A stretch of 64,000 nucleotides of DNA from Rossellomorea aquimaris (GTDB lineage Bacteria > Bacillota > Bacilli > Bacillales > Bacillaceae_B): positions 1,769,001-1,833,000 of the forward strand of contig NZ_CP141595.1 of the NCBI RefSeq assembly GCF_035590735.1. Reading direction: 5' to 3'. This document shows positions 1,972 to 42,801 of the stretch, piece by piece. Below the pieces are notes generated by a model that saw only the letters and a program-made list of their open reading frames with translations, had not been told where the DNA came from and did not search any database. How positions within the stretch are numbered: the first letter of the stretch is position 1; each line of letters starts with the position of its first letter. A program made the translations under genes and the position numbers.

Positions 1972-2633
1972 AAGGCTCTTTTCGTATAGTTTGGGGCTAT
2001 TGTAGAGGCAGAAAGTAATAGTTGATTTCCGCTCCAGGATGCTCGCTTTCCGCGGGGCTGGCGGTGAGCCTCCTCGGCTGCGCCTCCGGGGTCTCACCTG
2101 TCCAGCTACGGGGCTTAGGGGCTCGGAGGTCATAAGCCGAGTCTGCCAAAAAGGCAAAGAGCGCCTTTCCGGCAGACTCGACTTATGCTTGTCGCCCCCG
2201 GGCAAAGCCCCTCCGCTTTTCGTACTGTCCAGCTTTTCCCACAGGAGTCGAGCATCCTGCAGCGAGAATCAACTTTCTGAGCATGTATCCTTAATGGAAA
2301 ACAATTAAAACAAGAATTTTAGCAAACAATCTCATTTAAGGTAAGTAGAGATTGATTTTCCTTTTAAGGAAGAAGAATTATTATTTTCTAGTTGCTTTTT
2401 TCTTACACACCTTGAAGCTCTGTCATGAAAATTCTGTTAAAGATGGTGAGGGGAACTGCGCAGACTCCGGCGGATTTTGGGCGTGCCGAGACCCCGTTCG
2501 GCTAAGCTGAGGAGGCTCGGCCGAACGCTAGCTGCAAGCGGAGCAGTCCCCCTCACCATCTAGCGTAAACCTGGTTGACAGAGCCCTTGCAGATTCTATG
2601 CTAGAAAACAACAATCTTTGCGAAAAGAGCCTT
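1972..2633. repeat. Composite palindromic repeat, copy 1 (with nested 127-bp unit)
   Basis: Bounded by a 13-bp inverted repeat, AAGGCTCTTTTCG at 1972-1984 and its complement at 2621-2633. Inside are two long hairpins. Hairpin 1 (about 2013-2277) pairs GTTGATT with AATCAAC, CAGGATGCTCG with CGAGCATCCTG, and GGTGAG with CTCACC. Hairpin 2 (2416-2584) pairs AGCTCTGTCA with TGACAGAGC, GATGGTGAGGGG with CCCCTCACCATC, and CGTTCGGC with GCCGAACG. Much more GC-rich than its surroundings, with no transposase. A second, shorter copy lies at 31505-32031. It fills the gap between slp and the next gene. Frames open across it are by-products of GC-rich palindromes. Confidence 0.85.
2099..2234. repeat. Nested structured repeat unit flanked by TGTCCAGCT
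   Basis: The 127 bases at 2108-2234 interrupt the 3' arm of hairpin 1 of the composite repeat and are absent from the copy at 31.5 kb. The 9-mer TGTCCAGCT lies at both junctions (2099-2107 and 2226-2234). The unit belongs to the same family as the array at 29.3 kb: a nested stem with arms GGGGC/GCCCC, ATAAG/CTTAT and GTCTGCC/GGCAGAC. Paired arm bases differ from those in the array while pairing is kept. Confidence 0.85.
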
Positions 2634-4098: not shown

Positions 4099-4111
4099 AG
4101 AAACAGATAAG

Positions 4112-4125
4112 ATAAAGCGTTTACA
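4112..4125 (+). promoter_or_regulatory. cre-like site (CcpA) just downstream of the SR1 start
   Basis: ATAAAGCGTTTACA agrees with the cre consensus TGWAANCGNTNWCA at 12 of 14 positions. Placed shortly after the predicted start, it would act as a roadblock. CcpA has a minor effect on SR1 in B. subtilis, so the site is plausible but unproven. Confidence 0.4.
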
Positions 4126-4153
4126 AAAAACAACGTGAAGGAGAGGAAAAAAG

Positions 4154-4273
4154 ATGGGAACAATTGTATGTCAATCATGCCTTAACACTATCGATCACTA
4201 TGAGGATGAGAAGGTTTCTGTTTTATTCTCTAACTGCTGTGATTGCAACGACGACAAAGAATTAGACGACTGA
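4154..4273 (+). CDS. sr1P: SR1P peptide, GapA-binding small protein
   Basis: 39 residues beginning MGTIVCQSC, with a CxxC near the N-terminus, an acidic middle containing EDEKV, and a second cysteine group CCDC. Length and motifs match SR1P of B. subtilis, a peptide encoded inside SR1 that binds the glycolytic dehydrogenase GapA and promotes its interaction with RNase J1. The cysteines suggest metal binding, which is inference. A purine-rich GGAGAGGAAAAAAG site precedes the ATG. The neighbours and the enclosing terminator agree with SR1. Confidence 0.9.
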   Translation: MGTIVCQSCLNTIDHYEDEKVSVLFSNCCDCNDDKELDD

Positions 4274-4326
4274 AACCTGCTAAGGGGTGCAGGGAGTGAA
4301 AATGTCTTAAAGGGGTTCTTATAAAT

Positions 4327-4366
4327 AAAAGGATGAAGAAGGGTGGGGCCTTCTTCATCCTTTTTT
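4327..4366. terminator. Shared terminator of SR1 and speA
   Basis: A 16-bp stem, AAAAGGATGAAGAAGG with its complement, with T runs on both strands. It ends SR1 on the plus strand and speA, whose stop is at 4368-4370, on the minus strand. Confidence 0.9.
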
Positions 4367-28876: not shown

Positions 28877-29209
28877 ATGGCGAATCAACAATCAAATTCA
28901 GGTAACCCAAGTGTAGATTACGAATATCGTCGTAAGAAAAATGCAGAGGACATGAGAATGCAAATTACATCCTTCATGTTAATGATTTTCTTAACATTGG
29001 TGGCGTTCATTGCAGTGGCAGGTGATTTTGATAAGTACTTTATTGTACCTTTCATCCTCTTACTTGCAGTCGTTCAACTAATTTTTCAACTTTATTACTT
29101 CATGCATATGAGTCATAAAGGTCATGAAGCTCCTGCATTATTCCTGTACTCTGGTGCACTTGTTGCATTTATCACAGTGTTAGCATTTGTAACGATTGTA
29201 TGGATCTAA
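28877..29209 (+). CDS. ctaF: Cytochrome caa3 oxidase subunit IV
   Basis: 110 residues with a hydrophilic N-terminus and three helices (about 34-52, 57-77 and 85-107). LYYFMHMSHKGHE between helices 2 and 3 is characteristic of the subunit IV family. It starts 4 bases after ctaE and ends the ctaBCDEF run; a terminator follows at once. Confidence 0.95.
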   Translation: MANQQSNSGNPSVDYEYRRKKNAEDMRMQITSFMLMIFLTLVAFIAVAGDFDKYFIVPFILLLAVVQLIFQLYYFMHMSHKGHEAPALFLYSGALVAFITVLAFVTIVWI

Positions 29210-29210
29210 A

Positions 29211-29243
29211 GAAAAAAGTCAGCCGGATGGCTGGCTTTTTTTG
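29211..29243 (+). terminator. Terminator after ctaF
   Basis: AAAAAGTCAGCC and GGCTGGCTTTTT (one G-U pair) around GGAT, followed by more Ts. Confidence 0.9.
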
Positions 29244-29265
29244 TAGAGTTTAAGTTTTCCCAATG

Positions 29266-29928
29266 TGCTTGTCGGGCCTGATCAAGCCGCTTCCGCTTTT
29301 CATTGTCCAGCTACGGGGCTTAGAGGCTCGAGGTCATAAGTCAAACATACCAAAAAGGCAAAGAGCGCCTTTCCGGTATGCTCGTCTTATGCTTGTCGCC
29401 TCTAGGCAAAGCCCCTCCGCTTTTCATTGTCCAGCTACGGGGCTTAGAGGCTCGAGGTCATAAGTCAAACATACCAAAAAGGCAAAGAGCGCCTTTCCGG
29501 TATGCTCGTCTTATGCTTGTCGCCTCTAGGCAAAGCCCCTCCGCTTTTCATTGTCCAGCTACGGGGCTTAGAGGCTCGAGGTCATAAGTCAAACATACCA
29601 AAAAGGCAAAGAGCGCCTTTCCGGTATGCTCGTCTTATGCTTGTCGCCTCTAGGCAAAGCCCCTTCGCTTTTCATTGTCCAGCTACGGGGCTTAGAGGCT
29701 CGAGGTCATAAGTCAAACATACCAAAAAGGCAAAGAGCGCCTTTCCGGTATGCTCGTCTTATACTTGTCGCCTCTAGGCAAAGCCCCTCCGCTTTTCATT
29801 GTCCAGCTCCAGCGGCTAGGCCCTCGAGGTCATAAGCCAATTCTGCCAAAAGGCAAAAAACTCCTTTCCGGCAGAATCGTCTTATGCTTGTCGGGCCTGG
29901 TCAAGCCGCTTCCGCTTTTCTAATTGTC
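29266..29928. repeat. Tandem array of 124-bp structured repeats between ctaF and ctaG
   Basis: Four nearly identical 124-base units start with TGTCCAGCT at 29304, 29428, 29552 and 29676; only a few substitutions separate them. A partial unit of another subtype (29266-29303, GGGCCTGATCAAGCCGC) precedes them and a full unit of that subtype (29800-29924) follows. Each unit folds into a nested stem: GGGGC/GCCCC, GAGGC/GCCTC, CATAAG/CTTATG, CATACC/GGTATG and GGC/GCC. Open frames run through the units only because they are GC-rich. It separates ctaF's terminator from the ctaG promoter. Confidence 0.95.
29800..29924. repeat. Terminal variant unit of the array
   Basis: Same architecture as the other units but with different arms: GCGGCTAGGCCC pairs with GGGCCTGGTCAAGCCGC (4-base bulge), and TTCTGCC pairs with GGCAGAA, where the main units have CATACC/GGTATG. 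Paired changes keep the stem. The right boundary ATTGTCAAG is a degenerate form of the junction 9-mer. Confidence 0.85.
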
Positions 29929-30014: not shown

Positions 30015-30920
30015 ATGCCTTTGGGTATTTTTGGTTTTATGGCTTTATGGAGCCCATTCTTTATATTGGCTTTAGTATTTATTACGGTCGTGTATTTCTT
30101 GATCACTGTCAAATGGAGAGACGGCTTTAAAGAAAGTGAAAAATTGACCAGCAAAGAAGCCACTTATTTTATTCTGGCAATGGTCCTATTATATGGAATT
30201 AAGGGTTCGCCGGTGGAGGTACTAGGTACCATTTTATTTTCTGCTCATATGACTCAGATGGCGTTACTATATTTAGTGGTCACTCCACTGCTCGTATTGG
30301 GAATTCCTAAATGGGTCTGGAAAGCTGCAGTTGAGTTACCGGTGGTTAAGCAAGTATTTAAGTTTATGACAAAACCATTGATCTCTTTACTATCTTTCAA
30401 TATCATCTTTTCGATTTATCATATCCCTCTAGTGTTTGATAATGTCAGAACTGATGCGACTCTTCACGGTTTGGCAACCGTTATACTATTCTTATTATCT
30501 TTATTTATGTGGTGGCCTTTACTAAATCCAGTGGATGACGATATTGACTTAAGCGGGCTCAAGCGTATTGGATATATTCTTGGGAGTGCAGTCTTATTGA
30601 CTCCTGCATGCGGATTGATCATTTTTGCAGAGAATCCTTTATATGCCCCTTACTATGATCCACAGGAGTTTCTTAAAGCGTTGGCACTATGTGTACCTGT
30701 TAACACTCTGGAAGGGTTGACGCTGACTGGTCCGGAGCTATTTACGGATATGTCTACACAAAATGATCAACAGCTTGGCGGAGTGATCATGAAGATTGTT
30801 CAGGAAATTGTATTTGGAGTTATGCTGTTCAACCTGTTTTTTCAATGGTATCGCCAAGATCAGGAGAAACAAGAAAAGCTCTCCTATGATCCCGTTGATC
30901 CTAAGTTGACAGAACAGTAA
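30015..30920 (+). CDS. ctaG: Cytochrome c oxidase assembly factor CtaG (caa3 type)
   Basis: 301-residue membrane protein of the caa3_CtaG family (unrelated to Cox11) with about seven helices. Conserved features include FSAHMTQMALLYLVVTPLL, where the His is a likely metal ligand, NIIFSIYHIPLVFD and LTPACGLIIF. B. subtilis CtaG is needed for active caa3 oxidase, probably for CuB insertion. ATG 30015 has GAGGTGAGCAA upstream. Own promoter at 29951-29979. Confidence 0.93.
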   Translation: MPLGIFGFMALWSPFFILALVFITVVYFLITVKWRDGFKESEKLTSKEATYFILAMVLLYGIKGSPVEVLGTILFSAHMTQMALLYLVVTPLLVLGIPKWVWKAAVELPVVKQVFKFMTKPLISLLSFNIIFSIYHIPLVFDNVRTDATLHGLATVILFLLSLFMWWPLLNPVDDDIDLSGLKRIGYILGSAVLLTPACGLIIFAENPLYAPYYDPQEFLKALALCVPVNTLEGLTLTGPELFTDMSTQNDQQLGGVIMKIVQEIVFGVMLFNLFFQWYRQDQEKQEKLSYDPVDPKLTEQ

Positions 30921-31504: not shown

Positions 31505-32031
31505 AGGCTCATTTATAAAGGCTTGTGGCTATCTTAGAGAAGAAAGTAGTAGTTGATTTCCGCTACAGGATGCTCGCTTTCCGCGGGGCTGGCGGTGAGC
31601 CTCCTCGGCTGCGCCTCCGGAGTCTCACCTGTCCAGCTATTCCCGCAGGAGTCGAGCCTCCTGCAGCGAGAATCAACTTTCTAAGCATGCATTTTTAATA
31701 GAAATAAATAAAATCAAAAGCTTTCAGCAAACAATTTTTTTTTTGAGGTGAGTAGAATTAATGTCCTATTGAAGAAGAATTCTTTCTTCTAATTAGTTTG
31801 TTTTTTAATACCTTTAGCTCTGTCACGAAAAAATTTTTAAAGATGGTGAGGGGAACTGCGTAGAATCCTGCGGAAGTACGGTCGTGCCGAGACCCCGTTC
31901 GGCTAAGCTGAGGAGGCTCGGCCGAACGTCCGCGGAAAGCGAAGCAGTTCCCCTCACCATCAAGCACATACTAATAGACAGAGCTTAAGCAGTCCTATTG
32001 TTAAAAACAACAATCTTTGAGAGAACTAAAG
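31505..32031. repeat. Composite palindromic repeat, copy 2
   Basis: Homologue of 1972-2633 over its whole length. Left end AGGCTCATTT and right end GAGAGAACTAAAG are decayed forms of the copy 1 terminal repeats. Hairpin 1 (about 31546-31682) keeps GTTGATT/AATCAAC, GCTGG/CCAGC, GGTGAG/CTCACC. Hairpin 2 (31816-31985) has a perfect 18-bp arm GATGGTGAGGGGAACTGC and AGCTCTGTC/GACAGAGCT. At 31630-31638 the single TGTCCAGCT marks where copy 1 holds its extra 127-bp unit. No coding capacity. Confidence 0.88.
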
Positions 32032-41128: not shown

Positions 41129-42538
41129 ATGAAACGCATCCTATTTACATTTGGTCTACTTATGATTTTGATTAGTTCCAGCATTCTTTTCTTTCAATGG
41201 ATGGGATTCACGACAGAAAGTGCCGAAGAGCCTGGGGCTGTAAAGGTAAATCAATCTTATTCCATCACGCATGAAGAAAACACATTTTTTGTGACACAAA
41301 CCATTCATTTCTTATCAACAATCCCTAAACAAATAACCATTCAATGGCCAAGTGATGCAAGGGATTTTTCATGTGTAAATGATAGAGGGGATAAGTGTTT
41401 AACGAAAGAAAATGGAGAATTCCAATTAAGTAATCTCTATAAAGACCTTAAGGAGATCACGATTACCTATTCTTTCGAGCAGCCGATTAAAACAGAAGGT
41501 ACGTTAGTGAAAGATTGGCATCCTGCACTATCTTCTATTGAAACGTTGAATACAAATATTCACATAACAGAAAAGAGTTTGAGGACCGGAAAATGGGTAG
41601 CAGGATATAAATTTGCGAGCCATAAAAAAAAGAATTATATCGATTATTATTCCTTCATTGGCCGTGGTGAGCCTTCCGCATTATATTGGACAGGAGATCC
41701 GTTGATGGAGAAAGCTTCATCTACAGTGAGGATGCTGTACGACAGGACCGACATAAAAGAGGCTGAGGCAGTCCAACCAGGCTCATTTGAAGGATTTGTG
41801 ACCGTCATCATCACGGATAAAATCCAGCACTATATATCTCCATATTTGATTGTGAGGAACACAGCTGATAAGGAGTTGCTGGATGAACTGAAAGGGAGCT
41901 TACTGTATCAACAGTATTTTTCCACTGATGATGATGCTTGGCTTAAAGAATTTATTGTTAGCATCCTTATAAAAAAACAACCTCACACTTCAAAATCTGC
42001 ATGGGCTTATAAAGAAGTAATGGAAGGACTGACCTCTTCCCAATTGGATGCATTTAAACGGAGGATGGAAGAGGACAAGACCAAATCGGTTGATGCAACA
42101 AAATTAGATATGATTTTAGGAAGAGTTACAGGTTTTGACTCTACATTTTTTACTGAAAGTGTAAAAGGAAAAGAGAAAGTCCCAATGATTCTTAAAAGCA
42201 ATAATCCTGTGCTCATCAACAAAAGAACACATAACCTGTCTTACATTTCGTATAAACAGAAAGAACTTATTCAATTTCCACAATCAGTAAAGGCTTTGGG
42301 GCTGGACATTAAAGAGATAAAGCCAAACGTATTTTTTACATCGTTGAATGGAAATACATTCAGGTTTTACGTGAATGAAGACTACTTTATTTATAATGAA
42401 GAAAATTACGGTTTATTAACGAATCCCATCCAAACAGTTGGGGGTTCTATCTATATGGATGTTCATTGGTTCGAGAAATTGTTCAAGGTAGAAGTGATGA
42501 ATAATGAAGTTTCCACCAGAGATGATGAAAGAACGTAA
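41129..42538 (+). CDS. Exported or membrane-anchored protein of unknown function
   Basis: 469 residues with an N-terminal helix (about 4-26) and a large extracytoplasmic part. N-terminal third is beta-rich (TQTIHFLSTIPKQITIQWPS); a pair of Cys at about 90 and 98 could form a disulphide. The last 70 residues resemble the copper-amine-oxidase N-terminal or stalk-type beta fold. I do not recognise the whole protein. CAAGGAGT lies upstream of the ATG. It occupies the ylbG-rsmD gap, where no B. subtilis gene of this size exists. Confidence 0.7.
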   Translation: MKRILFTFGLLMILISSSILFFQWMGFTTESAEEPGAVKVNQSYSITHEENTFFVTQTIHFLSTIPKQITIQWPSDARDFSCVNDRGDKCLTKENGEFQLSNLYKDLKEITITYSFEQPIKTEGTLVKDWHPALSSIETLNTNIHITEKSLRTGKWVAGYKFASHKKKNYIDYYSFIGRGEPSALYWTGDPLMEKASSTVRMLYDRTDIKEAEAVQPGSFEGFVTVIITDKIQHYISPYLIVRNTADKELLDELKGSLLYQQYFSTDDDAWLKEFIVSILIKKQPHTSKSAWAYKEVMEGLTSSQLDAFKRRMEEDKTKSVDATKLDMILGRVTGFDSTFFTESVKGKEKVPMILKSNNPVLINKRTHNLSYISYKQKELIQFPQSVKALGLDIKEIKPNVFFTSLNGNTFRFYVNEDYFIYNEENYGLLTNPIQTVGGSIYMDVHWFEKLFKVEVMNNEVSTRDDERT

Positions 42539-42541
42539 AAA

Positions 42542-42570
42542 GCCCTGCAGAACTTTCTGCAGGGTCCTTC
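42542..42570 (+). terminator. Weak terminator-like hairpin
   Basis: CCCTGCAGAA and TTCTGCAGGG pair perfectly around a short loop; the following TCCTTCTAT is a poor T tract. Confidence 0.5.
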
Positions 42571-42801
42571 TATATCCATTTCTGGAAAGAAGGCAAAGGG
42601 AGAGGAGAAACCGGAGGAAGAACTTATGGGGAATCGTAAGTCTTCTCCGCGGTTGGCAACAACATCAGTTAGGATGCTGTTACTTCCATTATCACCTATC
42701 GACATGATTTTATACATGTTTTGCGACAATTTCAGTATGTAGCGATATCTGTCGAGATATGATAGGATAGTGAAGAAAAAATACATATATGGTGGATGAT
42801 T

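Follow-up and report, generated by a model that had tools for sequence, protein, structure and literature searches.

Within the window that we analysed, a 64,000-nucleotide stretch of Rossellomorea aquimaris DNA, a tandem array has the cytochrome c oxidase subunit IVB gene (28877-29209, TIGR02908) upstream of it and ctaG (30015-30920, TIGR02737) on its other side. A terminator-like hairpin with a T-run, found on the plus strand by a pattern scan and read in the sequence (29221-29243), stands 3' of the subunit IV gene, and the array comes next. Tandem Repeats Finder reports a single array (29284-29893) with a period of 124, 4.9 copies and 94% matches, and a profile search with nhmmer places all of its units on the plus strand; both bear out the 124-bp tandem array of the preliminary description. 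The array opens with a 41-bp 5'-truncated unit (29261-29301, profile positions 83-123), of which the 3' end alone is present (CAATGTGCTTGTCGG...CGCTTTTC). There follow five full units, each recovered both by nhmmer and by our covariance model R1: unit 1 (29303-29425), unit 2 (29427-29549), identical to it, units 3 (29551-29673) and 4 (29675-29797), with one difference each from unit 1, and unit 5 (29799-29920), a divergent type with different complementary stems. For one repeat length of the array the minimum free energy has z = -3.26. The window also holds two Rfam matches, a ylbH leader (42533-42652, 104 bits) and an SR1 sRNA (4102-4363, 54 bits).

The preliminary description had counted four near-identical units and two variant ones; the four stand, and of the two variants one is a divergent full unit and the other a fragment. 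Its list of paired arms holds in much the same way: CATACC/GGTATG, GAGGC/GCCTC and GGGGC/GCCCC are present in units 1-4, and TTCTGCC/GGCAGAA, GGCCC/GGGCC and GCGGC/GCCGC in unit 5, but GTCTGCC/GGCAGAC and a third-stem GGGGC/GCCCC are absent from the array and occur instead in a lone unit elsewhere in the window (2098-2221). Recent expansion, also proposed there, is supported by pairwise differences of 0, 1 or 2 bases among units 1-4 and by the four nearest named records, whose ctaG sites carry 1, 2, 5 and 1 full units, respectively (one unit of the five-unit record contains Ns). CtaG itself is 95-97% identical to CtaG of three R. aquimaris strains and of Bacillus sp. CH30_1T, which, as judged by this one protein, would place the chromosome close to R. 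aquimaris within Rossellomorea.

We read the array as one locally expanded copy of a 123-bp intergenic repeat that is present in more than 100 copies in this genome. With one unit as the query, blastn gives at least 86 matches (best 40 of 81 candidates scored); the profile gives 89 non-overlapping matches in 40 loci, 74 of the 89 at full length; and R1 gives at least 120, of which 110 have E < 1e-6 (best 150 of 1167 candidates). Fifteen congeners have from 52 to at least 142 R1 matches per genome, and 24 of the 25 genomes in this sample, the source genome included, have matches; in an order-wide search the congener G246 gave a lone weak match. In that search, with the best 14 candidates or fewer scored per genome, 188 of 249 genomes and 80 of 105 genera of the order gave one match or more. 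Thirty genomes from 27 other genera, selected for having matched already, hold 9 to 117 matches each (best 118 candidates scored), and head-to-tail neighbours are seen in other genera too. Nearly all copies are 122-124 nt long, and consecutive units in the arrays that we read are separated by 1-5 nt. Many arrays open with a 5'-truncated unit, and many start directly after a terminator-like hairpin. Units of the same array are more alike (mean identity 0.892, 49 pairs) than units of different arrays (0.807, 2151 pairs), a comparison that covers 68 of the genome's 74 full units. A rare subtype (L073:2535-2654, L054:2210-2330 and L044:2214-2330) has the usually constant CATAAG/CTTATG helix swapped for another complementary pair, for example CACATTG/CAATGTG.

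No Rfam family matches the array at its gathering score, and the weak hits at E up to 10 are at chance level. Phage records gave no match to the unit, and plasmid records gave one, on a 690-kb replicon of Cytobacillus spongiae. Our search of the full-text literature found no description of the repeat, although an earlier one may exist in the subscription papers, most of which lie outside its coverage; the papers retrieved with words of the unit sequence concern, by their titles, unrelated subjects.

Orthologous sites show that arrays turn over. Among 25 records of the Rossellomorea clade, the ctaG site holds at least one full unit in 17, a 3' fragment alone in one (L075) and no unit in 7, one of which (L092) has a weak match on the opposite strand; in 52 further records with both the subunit IV gene and ctaG, no unit lies between them. 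R. marisflavi JCM 11544, a congener poor in units, is without any at this site. More widely, 20 fetched orthologous stretches contain 0 to 5 full units each. Locus L071 has one unit, a chimera of two types, and L067 is an A-B-A-B array where a relative has one unit. The two flanks of L034 match those of a relative at 95.8% and 97.9% identity and the array does so at 81.9%, with different stems in all three units. We considered retroposition because so many arrays begin with a 5'-truncated unit; at L039 the relative resembles a deletion derivative. A two-unit array (L035, G000:C1:201762-202007) has a SAM riboswitch (201572-201676) about 86 bp away, and in relatives this locus is empty or holds remnants.

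Copies of the repeat also move, as indicated by filled and empty sites, by an array present at two loci and by the varying numbers of units at orthologous sites. The lone unit at 2098-2221 (plus strand) sits inside a larger palindromic repeat of a second family (GTTGATTTCCGCT...CTTTCCGCGGGG...GGGGTCTCACC...CCCGCAGGAGTCGAG...AATCAAC), which has at least 40 matches in the genome (best 40 of 119 candidates scored) and two copies in the window. The copy at 2016-2276 contains the nested unit as an insert at 2099-2225, including GTAC; the copy at 31550-31690 is empty, and sequence comparison places the corresponding empty site, TCTCACC|TGTCCAGCTATTCCCG, at 31623-31654 on the plus strand. Filled larger repeats have a precise insert of 126 or 127 bp before TGTC, consisting of the unit plus GTAC. 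TGTC(C.GCT) thus flanks the nested unit on both sides, the 5' copy in the unit's own letters (TGTCCAGCT) and the 3' copy in those of the target, where it may be the target's TGTCCCGCT (L036). At the equivalent position in another species a different type of unit is nested in one copy (L225), and the sister copies L219, L228 and L231 are empty. Outside the larger repeat, L048 and L052, which lie 970 kb apart (at 1889 and 2859 kb), share one three-unit array within unrelated flanks, with units that are identical or 99% identical and a start fragment common to both. Orthologous sites that are empty or hold only a fragment are found for L031, L035, L039, L048 and L058; those of ordinary arrays yielded no base-exact junction, and the sites compared showed no clean target-site duplication. 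TGT occurs within 6 nt of the 3' end of 9 of 23 arrays, against a background of 0.084, for a motif picked after the flanks had been viewed; the 23 come from 26 non-nested arrays after setting aside L053, L058 and L062, whose 3' ends are altered, and the 14 nested units are left out for want of independence.

The reverse strand of the unit is predicted to form a long imperfect hairpin, and the arms of this hairpin covary. For this analysis we aligned 105 of 107 distinct full units with MAFFT without structure (alignment A1), leaving out two 131-nt units, one unit with Ns having been skipped earlier. Paired columns are complementary in 95.0% of 3874 cells compared with 80.7% in shuffles, two-sided changes occur in 26 of 37 pairs compared with 16.3, and the covariation score is 0.354 compared with 0.109; further pair types, 52 of them against 49.6, show no excess. 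When partner columns are slid, the signal is lost. Against a tree-based null of 60 simulated alignments, which is approximate because exchange of units violates strict descent on a tree, 7 of 7260 column pairs pass at E < 0.05. Six are stem pairs (17-109, 22-99, 44-78, 45-77, 46-76 and 47-75) and the seventh, 23-97, is the neighbour of one. At each of columns 44-47 with 75-78 all four Watson-Crick types are present. Column diversity averages 0.376 for the most variable helices and 0.169 for columns that are unpaired; the covarying stems are accompanied by conserved unpaired bases. The covariation is genuine, and exceeds what phylogeny and chance would give; the preliminary description had named a lack of such an excess as its refutation, and this outcome did not occur. 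Its further conclusion, that the folded form is kept, survives only in part: covariation alone is not proof that the fold is under selection, since arms can also be kept complementary by template switching, according to the part of PMC8794818 available to us.

What kind of molecule folds? The preliminary description had left this as RNA or DNA cruciform, and the choice can be narrowed. Whether RNA or DNA parameters are used, the minus strand comes out as the more stable in all 105 units, and we therefore favour one strand over a symmetric cruciform. Across genera the same holds for 52 of 56 units and 31 of 33 loci. Within the genus the advantage arises because column pairs 41-81, 50-72, 51-71 and 58-64 are G.U in the minus strand where the plus strand has A.C; across genera this is clearly kept at 58-64 alone (46 of 54), and the other three columns are not conserved. 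In wobble counts that set aside the three pairs 29-31/90-92, the minus strand has 400 G.T, 22 A.C and 167 other in 4190 stem cells when the four columns are included. Without the four columns the counts are 46 G.T, 22 A.C and 141 other in 3771, compared with 37, 0 and 2 in 672 for the SAM riboswitches of this genus (30 loci, 25 of them distinct). Restricted to pairs that show two or more Watson-Crick types, they are 26, 15 and 113 for the unit and 9, 0 and 2 for this control, which is small here, and across genera the minus strand gives 81, 53 and 201 in 1697. There is thus a minus-strand asymmetry in the wobbles, but it is weak next to that of a real RNA, and the scarcity of G.U intermediates speaks against ordinary RNA and for single-stranded DNA.

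Could the minus strand nonetheless be a structured RNA, whether an sRNA, a processed transcript or an antisense element, with pairing selected at the RNA level? The consistently better fold of that strand, gained through G.U positions conserved in the genus, would agree with this, as would the conserved internal loops and the excess of G.T over A.C both in this genome's units and across genera; moreover, about half of the bcr repeat copies in B. cereus are transcribed, according to the portion of PMC3446304 that we saw. Yet the units have no uniform orientation relative to the genes beside them (among 40 loci, 18 run with both neighbours, 12 against both and 10 otherwise, from rough ORF calls), so that the minus strand would usually be antisense, and this, the lack of any Rfam match reaching a family's gathering score and the scarce wobble intermediates beside the SAM control make a plain RNA unlikely in our judgement, though it is the strongest of the competing explanations. 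A somewhat less probable alternative is that the arms are kept complementary mainly by mutation, through template switching within an imperfect palindrome, without selection for the fold. Template switching is able to create and mend stems (PMC8794818, as far as that source was accessible), G.U intermediates are indeed few, and units L042 and L083 differ at one unpaired column and at 12 stem pairs, all of them two-sided and none one-sided. However, positions 30-91 and 58-64 stay non-complementary in the genus and across genera, where such a mechanism would mend them; in the eight pairs of units that do not differ at unpaired columns, there are 10 one-arm changes to 4 two-arm changes, as in ordinary mutation; and the spread of the units is left unexplained. 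Template switching may add to the covariation, but the conserved mismatches speak against its being the sole cause. We give least credence to an ordinary host function in cis, with hairpins behind genes serving termination, insulation, supercoiling or nucleoid binding and the arrays growing by plain slippage. The intergenic position of the units and the many arrays right after a terminator-like hairpin would suit it, and a hand count has 16 of 26 non-nested arrays following a gene of the same direction; this is not different from half, however, the presence of units at a given site varies among close relatives, and units are also nested in another repeat.

Among known repeats, ERIC has a length of about 127 bp, and Vibrio attC repeats are about as long as our unit. 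Like MITE-like repeats (ERIC, NEMIS, RUP, bcr1 and other bcr), the unit is a non-coding, intergenic, many-copy imperfect palindrome with traits of a mobile element but without an enzyme of its own; for this class we draw on parts of PMC3733652 and PMC3446304, and for the bcr repeats of the B. cereus group on parts of PMC2267715 and PMC3446304. It is unlike them in its head-to-tail arrays of full units, its hypervariable complementary stems and its order-wide distribution, where bcr and ERIC are compared by description. The unit ends, TTGTCCAGCT... and ...CCGCTTTTC, do not form terminal inverted repeats: a short AGC/GCT is the pairing nearest the ends, with the stem beginning 12 nt inside. With REP and REPIN sequences the unit shares a hairpin recognised, in their case, as a single strand, an intergenic and clustered placement and a lack of autonomy. 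REPs, however, are palindromes of 20-40 bp (PMC3733652, in the part seen) and the unit has 122-124 nt, its copy number is not tied to Y1 genes, and no unit adjoins the three RAYT genes of this genome, one of them being accompanied by a GGACGGACC repeat of its own. Integron attC sites, whose bottom strand is preferred and which are recognised by their fold and extrahelical bases (PMC3053210, again in part), resemble the unit in their variable complementary stems, tandem arrangement and one-strand preference. Here, though, no gene cassettes separate the units (the gaps are 1-5 nt), no integron integrase scores above the cut-off in 17 genomes, and we recognised no core boxes at the unit ends by eye. 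Structured RNAs in Rfam, finally, share with the unit compensatory changes and conserved loops, and differ from it in the points raised above: the unit has no model match, few G.U intermediates relative to SAM and a mixed orientation to genes.

Two candidate movers were examined and rejected. The three Y1/RAYT genes of this genome have no adjacent unit in their 3.3-kb loci, at least 13 genomes rich in units lack any Y1 hit, and G246 has 6 Y1 hits and one weak unit. For the integron integrase, TIGR02249 was above its cut-off in 0 of 17 genomes of the genus, and hits below the threshold occur as they do in all 14 control genomes. These families, Y1 and integron integrase, thus yielded no mobilising enzyme. 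A hand count of replication strands (39 versus 26 of 65 loci, the terminus being assumed at half the chromosome) gave no significant bias. At L151 (G000:C1:4271918-4275253) a RAYT-type Y1 transposase gene has on its flanks several copies of another short repeat, GAGGTCCGTCCCTC, which is likely the REP of that gene.

The copies, their covariation, the filled and empty pairs, the array at two loci and the turnover of units are observed directly, as are the fold and strand bias at the level of structure prediction. We propose that they reflect a non-autonomous mobile repeat whose folded single strand is recognised by a putative DNA enzyme and which expands locally into arrays, a reading to which we assign a probability of roughly one half. 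What we infer is the step through a single strand, the choice of target and the enzyme. The working form would be single-stranded DNA of the minus strand (GAAAAGCGG...GCTGGACAA), and a new unit would insert beside a target of the TGTC/GACA type. The end of the unit would itself carry such a target, and therefore a resident unit would serve as the target for the next, producing head-to-tail arrays; unequal recombination could afterwards duplicate, delete and mix units. A more specific and rather speculative version would make these arrays a cassette-less, order-wide counterpart in Bacillota of attC arrays, with single-stranded DNA hairpin sites handled by a putative recombinase that reads the minus strand. 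Such an enzyme might recognise the fold and a few unpaired bases, sites would be inserted, removed and shuffled, and the freely drifting stems would record the exchange of units.

The repeat is present in more than 100 copies per genome across much of the genus. Its arrays would provide a natural record of compensatory changes arising in a DNA hairpin, and they caution against taking covariation as proof of RNA. If the unit does move as a folded single strand, the enzyme responsible would represent an undescribed DNA-processing activity.
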